Positions 42,657 to 62,345 of a DNA stretch of 64,000 bases are shown here, piece by piece. The position numbers were made by a program, and so were the translations under genes. The stretch comes from Paenimyroides ummariense. Its GTDB lineage: Bacteria > Bacteroidota > Bacteroidia > Flavobacteriales > Flavobacteriaceae. The first letter of the stretch is position 1. The number at the start of each line of letters is the position of its first letter. The DNA lies in assembly GCF_900115115.1 (NCBI RefSeq), contig NZ_FOVI01000004.1:1-64000 (forward strand). The letters run 5' to 3'. A model generated the notes under the pieces. The model made no database searches. It saw nothing but the letters and a program-made list of their open reading frames with translations, and was not told where the DNA came from.

Positions 42657-43205
42657 TTAATAATTGTTATCGTCGTAATCAAATTCGTTAAAACCTTCAT
42701 CACCGTCAAACATATCAAAATCTTCATCATCGTAATCATCATCAAAATCTCCGTAAATATCGTCTTTAGAAATCGGATCATCGAAGTTTTTCACAGGTGC
42801 ATCTTCAGGTAAAACGCCGTGCGCAAAAAGTAGAGCAGGTAATTCTTTTTCTTCCGAATCATCTTCACTTTCAATTGCAGCCAATTCTACAAAGAACGTC
42901 CAATTTACAAACGGATCGTATATGTAAAGAATTTTTGTTTGATCTTCATACAACAGATCGTTCAGTTTAAAATCGCTCATTGTTTTGTGTTCACCCGGAA
43001 CATCGCCCATATCAAACAACATAATTTCGTCTTGTTGTTCCCAGTTGTCATCGCACAAAAAAAACGATCCGCCTTCCATACCATCAAAACCGAAAGCGTT
43101 GATAATCGTGTTGTGCAAATCTTCTAAAGTATCTGTATCTTTAATGGCAATGTCTCTTAAAACATCATCTTCAGCATCTAAAATAACGCGAAATTTGTAA
43201 ACCAT
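42657..43205 (-). CDS. Plasmid pRiA4b ORF-3-like protein
   Basis: 182 aa from the Met at 43205 (MVYKFRVILDAEDDVLRDI). PRiA4_ORF3 domain with DLHNTIINAFGFDGMEGGSFFL, LNDLLYEDQTKILYIYDP and a very acidic C-terminal tail (about 145-182: DDDYDDEDFDMFDGDEG). No transposition genes nearby, so its old IS-passenger name says little about its role. Function unknown; the acidic tail may mediate protein or nucleic-acid-mimic contacts. Confidence 0.75.
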   Translation of the reverse strand: MVYKFRVILDAEDDVLRDIAIKDTDTLEDLHNTIINAFGFDGMEGGSFFLCDDNWEQQDEIMLFDMGDVPGEHKTMSDFKLNDLLYEDQTKILYIYDPFVNWTFFVELAAIESEDDSEEKELPALLFAHGVLPEDAPVKNFDDPISKDDIYGDFDDDYDDEDFDMFDGDEGFNEFDYDDNNY

Positions 43206-43337
43206 GATTCTTATATTTGATAGCAAATTTACTATTTAATATTGATTTTTTTTGGCTTTTAATTTTTCTTTTTTTTGTTTATGAAGGTAAATTTTACGGT
43301 TGGGAAGGTAAAATCGACAGTTCGGCGACTTTTAGTT

Positions 43338-43366
43338 TTTGCGTTAATAATCTTGCCTTACTTTTG
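43338..43366 (+). promoter_or_regulatory. Promoter of the LytS/2TM/LytTR operon
   Basis: TTTG (43338-43341), 17-bp spacer, TACTTTTG (43359-43366), 26 bp before the ATG at 43393. Confidence 0.55.
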
Positions 43367-43392: not shown

Positions 43393-44709
43393 ATGAAAGA
43401 TTTTTTAAGACATATAAAGCAGTTTTTAATAATATTAGTGATATGCTACGTTATTGTAATTGGTATAAATTATGGCTATGGCACAAGATACAACGGCTTT
43501 GGTTTTGTAAAGCAGTTTATAAATGTGTTTACCTACACTTTTGGAATTTACATGGCAAATATGTTGGTTTTATCTGACTATTATTTAAATCGAAAAAAGA
43601 ATTTTGAAAACATTTTGGTCGGCGGAATTTTAGTAAACATCCTTACAGCTTTGGTTGTTTTACTGTTAGAATTTTTAGGATATTTAGTTTTCATAAATGG
43701 TTCTGCATTTGAAGCATTTACGTTTGTAAAAAATAATTCAACTTTTATGTTGTGGTTTTCAATGACCATTTCAACAATCGTATATATTGTTTTATTGATT
43801 CGTAGAAAAGATAAAATTGAAGTTACGCAGCAAAAAGATATCGCTATAAAAGCAACTGCTTCGTTTGAAACTTTGAAAAATCAGTTAGATCCGCATTTTT
43901 TGTTTAATTCTTTGAATGTTTTGAGTTCGTTGATTGAAGAAAATCCTAAGAAAGCACAAGAATTTACTGTAGCACTTTCAAAGATTTACCGCTATGTTTT
44001 AGATCAAAAAGATAAGAATTTGATTTCGGTTGAAGAAGAACTGAATTTTGCAAAATTGTATGTCTCGCTTTTAAAAATGCGTTTTGAAGATGCCATCATC
44101 ATCAATTTTCAAACAGATGCAGATATAAGCGAATTTAGAATTGTTCCTTTAAGTTTACAGCTTTTGCTAGAAAATGCCATAAAGCACAACATTATATCAG
44201 ACCAAAAACCTTTACAAATTGATATTTTCAAAGAAGAAAATTATCTGGTTGTTCAAAATACTTATCAAAAAAAGCAAACTTTTGAAAAATCTACCAGAAT
44301 TGGATTGCAAAATATTATGCAGCGCTACAATTTAGTATCTAATTTAAATATCGATATTCAACAAACCGAAAAATTATATATTGTAAAACTCCCATTAATT
44401 TCAGGCGAATCGTTAGTTAACTTTCAAGATGATTTAATTACAGAAGAGCTTTTTAATAATGCTTACGATAGAATGTATCAATTAAAAGAATTTTATGTAA
44501 CCGTTTTTGTAGCTGTAATTGTAATTCCTGCAGCAATAATACTAAACTTTTTCTATTTACCTCACTATAAATGGTCGTTAGCAATAGTTTTATTTACACT
44601 TTTTGCACTTGTTATAAACGGATTTAAAACAGTAAACTTCTTGAAGAATTGGGAAAACAAAATGATAAAAAAACAAATTAATAAAAATAGAACTCATGGA
44701 AAATTATAG
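43393..44709 (+). CDS. LytS/AlgZ-type sensor histidine kinase with a C-terminal 2TM domain
   Basis: 438 aa. N-terminal TM region (about 10-30, 42-62, 75-100, 118-136), His_kinase domain with phosphoacceptor His168 in LDPHFLFNSLNVLSSL, N box LLLENAIKHN (257-266) and a degenerate G box (RIGLQNIMQRY). Residues 350-438 form a second membrane module (YQLKEFYVTVFVAVIVIP...NFLKNWENKMIKK) matching the 2TM domain encoded by the next gene. It overlaps that gene by 14 bp. Likely phosphorylates the LytTR regulator at 44995-45732. Confidence 0.85.
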   Translation: MKDFLRHIKQFLIILVICYVIVIGINYGYGTRYNGFGFVKQFINVFTYTFGIYMANMLVLSDYYLNRKKNFENILVGGILVNILTALVVLLLEFLGYLVFINGSAFEAFTFVKNNSTFMLWFSMTISTIVYIVLLIRRKDKIEVTQQKDIAIKATASFETLKNQLDPHFLFNSLNVLSSLIEENPKKAQEFTVALSKIYRYVLDQKDKNLISVEEELNFAKLYVSLLKMRFEDAIIINFQTDADISEFRIVPLSLQLLLENAIKHNIISDQKPLQIDIFKEENYLVVQNTYQKKQTFEKSTRIGLQNIMQRYNLVSNLNIDIQQTEKLYIVKLPLISGESLVNFQDDLITEELFNNAYDRMYQLKEFYVTVFVAVIVIPAAIILNFFYLPHYKWSLAIVLFTLFALVINGFKTVNFLKNWENKMIKKQINKNRTHGKL

Positions 44710-44995
44710 TCAATTAGAACTTTTAAAAGCAAGAAAACGTGTAAAAAAAGTAAAAGATTTTTATATTCACGCTTTAATTTATGCTTTGGTAAACAGCGCG
44801 CTTATTATTTTAAATTTGTTAAGTAATGATACTAATTATTGGTTTGTATTTCCGGTAATTGGTTGGGGAATAGGTTTGTTTTCGCACGCTGCAAATACTT
44901 TTAATTTTATTCCTTTTTTAAATAAAGACTGGGAAAACCGAAAAATTAAGCAGTATATGGACGAAGAACGAAATGCTTTTAAAAATAAACATTAA
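44696..44995 (+). CDS. 2TM-domain protein
   Basis: 99 aa: basic N-terminal helix (LELLKARKRVKKVKDFY), two TM helices (about 25-42 and 50-70, the second with VFPVIGWGIGLFSHA), then NKDWENRKIKQYMDE. Overlaps both neighbours (14 bp and 1 bp), so it is translationally coupled to the kinase and regulator. It shares the FY...WEN..IK frame with the kinase C terminus. Role unknown; such proteins accompany LytTR systems in Bacteroidota, perhaps modulating the kinase. Confidence 0.8.
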   Translation: MENYSQLELLKARKRVKKVKDFYIHALIYALVNSALIILNLLSNDTNYWFVFPVIGWGIGLFSHAANTFNFIPFLNKDWENRKIKQYMDEERNAFKNKH

Positions 44996-45732
44996 TGAAA
45001 ATTGTAATTATTGAAGACGAAAAGCCAGCTGCACGTTTACTAAAACGTAAGGTTGAAAACCTGAATTGTGAAGTTATCGCCGTGCTATCGTCGGTCACAG
45101 AAAGTATCGAATGGTTTTTACAAAACGAACATCCAGATTTGGTTTTGGTTGATATTCAATTATCCGACGGTTTATCGTTTGAAATTTTTGAACAGGTAGA
45201 AATTAAGAGTTCTGTCATTTTCACTACTGCTTATGATGAATATGCATTAAAAGCATTTAAACTGAATAGTATTGATTATTTACTAAAACCAATTGATGAA
45301 AACGAACTGAAAGCAGCCATTGAAAAGTTTTTATCGTTGCAAAATAAAACAATTTTTAATCAGCAAAGTTTAAACAATGTTTACAGCAGCAATTTCAAAA
45401 AACGATTTGTTGTTAAAACCGGAAACATCATAAAAATTATCGATGTTAATGATATTGAATGTTTTTATAGTGCCTTTAAAAGTAGTTTTTTAACAACAAT
45501 TGAGAATAGATCTTTTAGTTTAGATGATAGCATGGAAACTATTGAAAAAGAAGTTGATAAAGAATGTTTTTTTAGAGTAAATCGTCAATTCATCATCAAC
45601 CTAAAAGCAATTAAAGAAATAAGTGTTTACAGTAATTCACGTTTAAAAATCAGTTTGAATAATTATAAAGAAGAAGAAATTATTGTAAGTAGAGAAAAGG
45701 TTCAGGCGTTTAAAGAATGGATTAGTAGATAA
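44995..45732 (+). CDS. LytTR-family response regulator
   Basis: 245 aa. Receiver domain (about 1-115) with phospho-acceptor Asp in LVLVDIQLSDGLSFEIF, TTAYDEYALKAFKLNSIDYLLKP, and a C-terminal LytTR DNA-binding domain (about 140-245; KRFVVKTGNIIKIIDVNDIECFYS, ECFFRVNRQFIINLKAIKEI). It starts 1 bp into the stop of the 2TM gene. Regulon unknown; the thioredoxin gene 45 bp further on may be included. Confidence 0.9.
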   Translation: MKIVIIEDEKPAARLLKRKVENLNCEVIAVLSSVTESIEWFLQNEHPDLVLVDIQLSDGLSFEIFEQVEIKSSVIFTTAYDEYALKAFKLNSIDYLLKPIDENELKAAIEKFLSLQNKTIFNQQSLNNVYSSNFKKRFVVKTGNIIKIIDVNDIECFYSAFKSSFLTTIENRSFSLDDSMETIEKEVDKECFFRVNRQFIINLKAIKEISVYSNSRLKISLNNYKEEEIIVSREKVQAFKEWISR

Positions 45733-61716: not shown

Positions 61717-61757
61717 CTACTACTAAAAATAAGTAGCAAATAATATTATTTTAGGTT

Positions 61758-61765
61758 TATATTTG
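61758..61765 (+). promoter_or_regulatory. -7 box of the DUF7935-like gene
   Basis: TATATTTG, 19 bp before ATG 61785. Confidence 0.5.
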
Positions 61766-61784
61766 TTTTTTAAAAGTGATAAAA

Positions 61785-62345
61785 ATGTTTTCAAATTTTA
61801 CGGTTGACTGGAAAGAGTCGTTACTTATATTATTAGGTTTAGCAGTAATTGTGCTGTTGTTTTATGTTTTTAATCGAAAATCGATCGCGAAAGAAAATGA
61901 AACCCGCAAGTTGTTAAAAGAACGTATGCAGCAACCTTATAGTGAACCACAAATTCAGGAAGTTGCACGAAAATCTACTCCACAAATTGTACAAGCTTAC
62001 GAACGGTTGATTATTTTAATGGAACGTATCGATTTGCAAAAATTAGTGGTTCGTGTAGCACCAATATCGACTCTAAAACAAGATTACGCATCGTTTTTAA
62101 TTCAGAATATTGATCAGGAATACGATTTTAATATTTCGCAACAATTATATGTTTCAGAAGAAGCTTGGGCGTTAATCGCAACGGCTAAACAAACAATTAT
62201 TCAGCAAATTTTAAAAACAAGTTTAAAAGAAGAAGTTATTAATGCAGATGATTTACAAAGAAATCTTTTGCAAAATAAAGAAGTTAATTCGGTTACGGAT
62301 TTGGCAAAAAACAGATTAAAACAAGAATTTAAAAGTTTGGTTTAA
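61785..62345 (+). CDS. Membrane-anchored protein of unknown function (DUF7935-like)
   Basis: 186 aa from the ATG at 61785 (a GTG 9 bp upstream is in frame). N-terminal TM helix (about 14-31, LLILLGLAVIVLLFYVF), then a cytoplasmic helical domain (IVQAYERLIILMERIDLQKLVVRVAP, EEAWALIATAKQTIIQQIL). Known in flavobacteria as a conserved protein; the family number is from memory and tentative. Divergent from the helicase gene. Confidence 0.6.
   Translation: MFSNFTVDWKESLLILLGLAVIVLLFYVFNRKSIAKENETRKLLKERMQQPYSEPQIQEVARKSTPQIVQAYERLIILMERIDLQKLVVRVAPISTLKQDYASFLIQNIDQEYDFNISQQLYVSEEAWALIATAKQTIIQQILKTSLKEEVINADDLQRNLLQNKEVNSVTDLAKNRLKQEFKSLV

Follow-up and report, generated by a model that had tools for sequence, protein, structure and literature searches.

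A putative LytS/LytTR-type operon of Flavobacteriales whose histidine kinase carries a C-terminal 2TM domain homologous to separate small membrane proteins

The three overlapping genes described here lie in a window of 64,000 nucleotides of Paenimyroides ummariense DNA, which is the whole stretch that was analysed. They are best explained as a LytS/LytTR-type two-component system with a self-activated operon, in which the membrane sensor would be partly built from 2TM domains, and a probability of roughly 55% is assigned to this reading. Sensor kinases usually carry their sensing parts ahead of the kinase core. In this type of operon, the ATPase domain is followed by a membrane part, of which the same operon encodes as many as seven stand-alone homologues.

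The features of the locus are collected in Table 1. The three open reading frames, their lengths and their overlaps (14 bp between the kinase and free 2TM genes, 1 bp between the free 2TM and regulator genes) are all present as the original prediction had given them. In Pfam, the His_kinase family (PF06580) matches residues 157–234 of the kinase (E 6.8e-25), and the regulator consists of a Response_reg and a LytTR domain. PF13239 is matched by both the 99-aa protein (residues 11–89, 100.7 bits) and the kinase tail (40.8 bits), each above the curated cut-off of 24.8 bits; these are the only two matches above the cut-off in the whole genome. A weak match to the same family at window positions 61731–61928 contains stops and lies below the cut-off, and was rejected. 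That the two membrane modules are related had been claimed beforehand, and they are indeed homologous: besides sharing the family, they align by BLASTP with 25/79 identical residues (E 2e-8), and their Smith-Waterman score of 100 is well above 72, the highest score reached by 2000 shuffles with the hydrophobic pattern preserved.

Table 1. Features of the kinase–2TM–LytTR locus; positions are those of the window
Feature	Position	Strand	Basis or remark
Sensor histidine kinase, 438 aa	43393..44709	+	N-terminal 4-helix membrane domain, His_kinase core (His168), C-terminal 2TM tail
Kinase C-terminal 2TM domain, residues 357-429	44461..44679	+	PF13239 E 2.4e-10
Free 2TM protein, 99 aa, alpha type, GWGIGLFSH kept	44696..44995	+	PF13239 E 4.6e-29
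LytTR-family response regulator, 245 aa	44995..45732	+	PF00072 E 2.4e-15, PF04397 E 2e-19
Predicted LytTR binding site: direct repeats ACGGTTGGG (43296-43304) and ACAGTTCGG (43317-43325), 12 bp spacer	43296..43325	+	matrix score
Predicted promoter: TTG (43339-43341), 17 bp, TACTTTTG (43359-43366)	43339..43366	+	sequence

Residues H168, N261 and G304 of the kinase are invariant across 104 aligned orthologues. The AlphaFold2 model of the kinase (mean pLDDT 83.8, pTM 0.49, with low confidence at residues 343–347) contains four long N-terminal helices, the kinase core, and then helices 346–388, 394–413 and 418–434. The first helix of the C-terminal hairpin, 346–388, runs unbroken in the model from the kinase side into the membrane. 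By hydropathy, transmembrane segments are placed at about 11–27, 45–61 (weak), 74–90, 120–136, 368–384 and 395–411. The catalytic domain therefore lies between membrane anchors, as had been proposed. The best solved-fold match was the kinase domain of GanS (6swk, E 8.5e-9). For the free 2TM protein, AlphaFold2 gives helices 2–42, 51–68 and 77–98 (pLDDT 87), and a Foldseek search with this model returned no match at E <= 0.001. The net charges of +5 ahead of the hairpin, −1 within its loop and +2 behind it would fit an N-in/C-in orientation.

Two further observations concern the surroundings. First, relatives of the divergent upstream neighbour gene (window 42657–43226, minus strand) are similarly placed in seven other loci (L037, L064, L132–L135 and L161); as L132–L135 either have no free 2TM gene or have a poorly recognised one, this gene order may mark one lineage. 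Second, the window genome contains another LytS-like kinase match with an adjoining regulator (G000:C57:20951-22276), and no 2TM match is found there.

In the sampled genomes, the predicted operon of tailed kinase, 2TM array and LytTR regulator is limited to Flavobacteriales. A full-length relative of the kinase was found in 43 of 60 genomes of the family, its own included (at least 234 bits, the next best being 158), and the window kinase was matched at E 1e-50 in 44 of 61 genomes of the genus. In a phylum survey of 296 genomes, with five candidates scored per genome, all 34 full-length matches fell within two families of Flavobacteriales. In the 15 other genomes of the phylum with a match, the alignments end at residues 336–342, with one exception that runs through stops to 384. 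The loci fetched from these 15 genomes, which lie outside the order, all have kinase and regulator together, with no tail and no 2TM gene seen. PF13239 itself is rare in two other orders (1/81 and 15/79 genomes at E 1e-8); at 17 loci from these orders, no LytTR regulator adjoins within about 1.5 kb around the 2TM gene, and a single weak match to the kinase comes from the 2TM protein itself.

A survey of other loci, which had been suggested together with the original prediction, found that the first 84 Flavobacteriales loci all combine the tail with one or more free 2TM genes; a LytTR regulator lies inside the 1.5-kb flank in 67 of them. Fifty further loci have the tail in every case and a visible regulator in 47; 80 later loci have the tail in 80, a free 2TM gene in 79 and a regulator in 75, and several of the remaining loci reach the contig end. 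All loci were picked by kinase similarity, and those 80 by an alignment that includes the tail, so that their universal possession of tails is a matter of selection; on tail presence, the genome surveys of family, genus and phylum are less biased than the locus sets. Altogether, 215 tail-bearing loci were reduced to 187 distinct ones by merging those in which the last 300 kinase residues are identical. The relatives include Flavobacterium, Polaribacter, Tenacibaculum, Maribacter, Winogradskyella and Chryseobacterium, and the closest titled ones, Paenimyroides viscosum and a Myroides MAG, have kinases 85–86% identical. The operon can be split, since three genomes (G033, G075 and G054) have their best regulator match at a great distance from the kinase and 2TM genes. 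In addition, a second kinase and LytTR pair, with no 2TM genes, directly follows the operon at L148:5156-7279 and L195:8638-10776 (oriented coordinates).

The regulator is visible in 179 of the 187 distinct loci, and at least one recognised free 2TM domain precedes it in 176 of these 179. The number of such domains is 0 in 3 loci, 1 in 31, 2 in 62, 3 in 43, 4 in 26, 5 in 10, 6 in 3 and 7 in 1. Two of the three loci counted as zero (L132 and L135) have at this place a small ORF that contains hydrophobic stretches but goes unrecognised by the profile. In L133, the tail is intact, there is no 2TM gene, and a gap of only 38 bp separates the kinase frame from that of the regulator. In a tree built from 380 domains of 114 loci, with split and short 2TM pieces excluded, the predicted 2TM domains form old subfamilies, namely alpha, beta, gamma and a divergent group. 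The alpha clade (support 0.74) holds 219 domains, including 112 of 115 tails; the beta clade (support 0.97) holds 112 domains and not a single tail. The gamma group has 31 domains and the divergent group 16, including the three tails of the window clade, and two more domains are unplaced. By profile, the commonest arrays among the 187 loci are alpha-beta (37), beta (25), beta-beta (12), gamma-alpha-beta (11) and alpha-gamma-alpha-beta (10). A common minimal unit is therefore a kinase-alpha with one free beta. Natural fusions also occur: kinase-2TM-2TM in L090 (a 518-aa frame), gamma-alpha in L073 (235 aa) and beta-beta in L189 (226 aa).

This phylogeny bears on the claim that the kinase carries a copy of its neighbour, which did not hold: the two are old members of one family, alpha-type tails occur throughout the order, and the window tail is a strongly diverged one. 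A recent duplication of the neighbouring gene into the kinase was likewise rejected, because tails and free proteins fall into clades that span many genera; the window tail and the window free protein are not nearest relatives.

Several variations of the array were also seen. In L139 (from the genome of L042) and in L117, one member is split over two frames and therefore looks broken. A PMT-type glycosyltransferase gene is inserted in the interval between the 2TM genes and the regulator in L146:4245-5733 and L155:3584-5072 (oriented coordinates; Pfam on L155), and an ICMT/PEMT-like methyltransferase gene occupies this interval in five genomes of the second family (L136, L137 and L150–L152; Pfam on L152). 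Apart from the arrays, there is a second 2TM class of about 300–326 aa, in which the 2TM domain is fused before dihydrofolate reductase (PF13239 plus PF00186; L106, L108 and L109, from G013, G028 and G040). Frames of that size recur in many genomes of the family among the matches listed, Pfam having been run on three.

As for the control of the operon, the predicted site at 43296–43325 is the strongest in the window, with 26.8 bits, the next being 15.6; once the window clade is removed from the matrix, it still scores 26.4 bits versus 15.5. The sequence behind it at 43339–43366 presumably corresponds to the Bacteroidota-type promoter consensus. Repeats of the 9-12-9 form that score more than 18 bits are found in the 1.4 kb ahead of the kinase gene in 169 of the 187 loci, and no repeat above 18 bits is found within that distance in the other 18; among loci with at least 1300 bp of upstream sequence, the proportion is 164/180. 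TTTG stands exactly 37 bp past the second repeat in the window and in 156 of the 169 sites overall. Shuffled sequence would yield 0.33 loci, and the seven other spacings tried gave 0–5. The count of sites is partly self-reinforcing, because the upstream regions of these very loci served to train the matrix; the shuffles and the other spacings act as controls.

Upstream of the kinase, a secreted-looking TPR-like protein (median 207 aa) comes first in the operon in 137 of the 182 loci that have an ORF there, or in 134 of 187 by a second method; Pfam TPR matches for two examples are at or below the cut-off. A DUF2141 protein, supported by Pfam, is encoded upstream in 63 of the 187 loci. Where such genes are unlinked to the operon, a LytTR site was present about 100–170 bp upstream of the matched part in all three found (TPR-like in G010, DUF2141 in G010 and DUF2141 in G028, scoring 26.8, 25.4 and 22.2 bits, respectively). 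These genes formed no part of the training set of the matrix, and their sites, three in number, support a real regulon. In the window genome and its two nearest relatives, no TPR-like or DUF2141 gene was found at E 1e-4. What is new here, then, is the predicted 9-12-9 LytTR repeats before the operon and before unlinked candidate target genes.

The mechanism proposed for the LytS/LytTR-type system would run as follows. One 2TM domain is fused to the C terminus of the kinase, and the others would be made as separate small proteins from the same operon. The free 2TM proteins would pack against the kinase tails as an inner-membrane bundle, tuning kinase activity, and helix 346–388 could relay the packing state of the bundle from the membrane to the catalytic domain. 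Judging from the protein families, the kinase would phosphorylate the LytTR regulator, which in its phosphorylated form would bind the repeats and raise its own operon, including the 2TM proteins; in relatives, it would also raise the secreted TPR-like and DUF2141 target proteins.

The pairing of the free 2TM protein with the kinase tail had already been suggested for the window. We infer that the two may pair from their constant linkage, from the fused variants and from a divergence of the tail that is tied to the loss of beta, a tie that rests on few lineages. Against the pairing, or neutral to it, are the intact tail of L133 beside no free 2TM gene and the fact that the tail also tracks an unlinked 2TM domain. 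Distance correlations given the kinase core (Mirrortree; the seven loci with low-scoring tails, six of them present, were left out) amount to 0.32 for tail and beta (n=169) versus 0.06 for tail and regulator (n=137). The former value is not specific, because an unlinked 2TM domain of the same genomes gives a similar correlation with the tail: 0.30 in the whole set (34 fetched, 33 used, with many frames of DHFR-fusion size), and 0.26 in the 29 genomes where tail and beta give 0.38. The kinase's own N-terminal domain reaches 0.52 with the tail in the 33-genome set.

The free 2TM proteins might instead act on the LytTR regulator and hold it at the membrane, the kinase tail being an extra anchor only. 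This is the arrangement that a comparison with LytTR Regulatory Systems (LRS) would suggest. In the available text of PMC6193735, LRS (HdrRM and BrsRM) are pairs of a LytTR regulator and a transmembrane inhibitor, with 9-bp repeats, mostly with 12-bp spacers, just upstream of the promoter of their own operon, and with positive feedback. The window operon resembles them, as far as that text describes them, in a membrane protein encoded with a LytTR regulator, in 9-12-9 repeats and in likely self-activation. In addition, beta genes mostly adjoin the regulator gene, 84 of the 112 beta-clade domains being last in their array. However, just 7 of 107 free alpha-clade domains are last, the correlation of beta and regulator distances given the kinase core is weak (0.18), and the kinase itself bears the same domain family. 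The same source, in the part available, describes LRS without a kinase, and nowhere in that paper is the term 'histidine kinase' used (PMC6193735). The minimal pair of LRS stands outside phosphosignalling, whereas the window operon includes a histidine kinase and a regulator with a receiver domain, and its membrane protein belongs to PF13239. Action on the regulator is unlikely.

It is likewise improbable that the 2TM array is mainly an output, for example envelope stabilisers made in bulk, whose amount the kinase tail would gauge by binding (feedback titration). The array does belong to an operon predicted to regulate itself, which in many relatives also encodes the secreted-looking TPR-like and DUF2141 proteins, and its size ranges from 0 to 7 recognised domains. 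But where the regulator is visible, 31 of the 179 loci have just one free 2TM domain, and in the window, the free 2TM gene overlaps the kinase gene, so that its product resembles a subunit more than a bulk product.

The lineage of the window departs from the common unit. Its free 2TM protein is of the alpha type (122.8 bits versus 95.2 for beta), and no beta is present at the locus. The alpha profile scores its kinase tail just above the other groups, and the tree places the tail in the divergent group. Among 188 tail domains, compared with a consensus computed without six loci with low-scoring tails (these being compared alongside), 183 have the Trp of the TM2 GWG motif, which is missing in four window-clade loci and in L035; these five Trp-less tails represent two lineages, and all belong to beta-less, alpha-only loci. 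The seven lowest tail scores of the 187 (53–80 bits, all others being at least 100) belong to L006, L160, L161 and L037 of the window clade and to L035, L131 and L090, all of them beta-less loci with alpha as the only free 2TM; L090 is among them because its first tail domain is trimmed by the tandem second one, and in L131 the best regulator match is elsewhere in the genome. Two more alpha-only loci have intact tails: L114, without beta (106 bits), with its best regulator match also elsewhere in the genome, and L181, where the contig ends. That L114 retains such a tail in spite of its missing beta speaks against the proposed mechanism, as do the 18 loci with no repeat above 18 bits.

That the window-lineage tail is a functionless, decaying leftover, as its lack of the Trp, of the His in TM2 and of most other signature residues and an identity with L037 of 50–51% (versus 77–81% for the core and 73–77% for the free protein) might suggest, is highly improbable, for its frame is open in all five clade members (L006, L036, L037, L160 and L161) and dN/dS is 0.06–0.33 in the four loci compared, where dS is mostly high. 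With such ratios, the tail looks remodelled rather than discarded, apparently under purifying selection. In Myroides and Paenimyroides, the free set may have shrunk to one alpha protein, and the module with the conserved Trp and His would in effect have changed place, being found now in the free protein instead of the kinase tail. A wider reading, which is tentative and put at less than even odds, extends this to Flavobacteriales as a whole: the self-activating system would represent a class not described before, its sensor would be a modular hetero-assembly with interchangeable alpha, beta and gamma subunits, and the window lineage would have swapped the conserved subunit to the free protein.

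Compared with known systems of the LytS/YehU(BtsS) type, the window operon has the PF06580 kinase with its phospho-acceptor His and ATP-binding motifs, a receiver plus LytTR regulator encoded one small gene downstream of the kinase, and direct-repeat sites, which are predicted and conserved here. It differs from them in the C-terminal 2TM domain of the kinase and in the stand-alone 2TM proteins. It also differs from generic PF13239 in being linked to signalling, while other genomes fuse PF13239 to DHFR. In the literature texts available to the search, neither a PF13239 protein with a tested function nor a description of a kinase-2TM-LytTR system was found, and work in subscription journals would escape this search. 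A LytTR/kinase pair of F. johnsoniae, FJOH_RS09515/RS09520, is reported in the available text of PMC10197871 as mutated in coevolution lines. With neighbouring tag numbers, it is probably not such a system.

PF13239 is thus placed in a concrete context, with a DNA site suited to genome scans and a first short list of likely target genes, which makes the function of the family directly testable in a tractable laboratory species. Many members of Flavobacteriales are environmental bacteria, and some cause disease in fish or humans. If the modular hetero-assembly holds true in this order, signalling would be set by which lineage-specific 2TM subunits are made.
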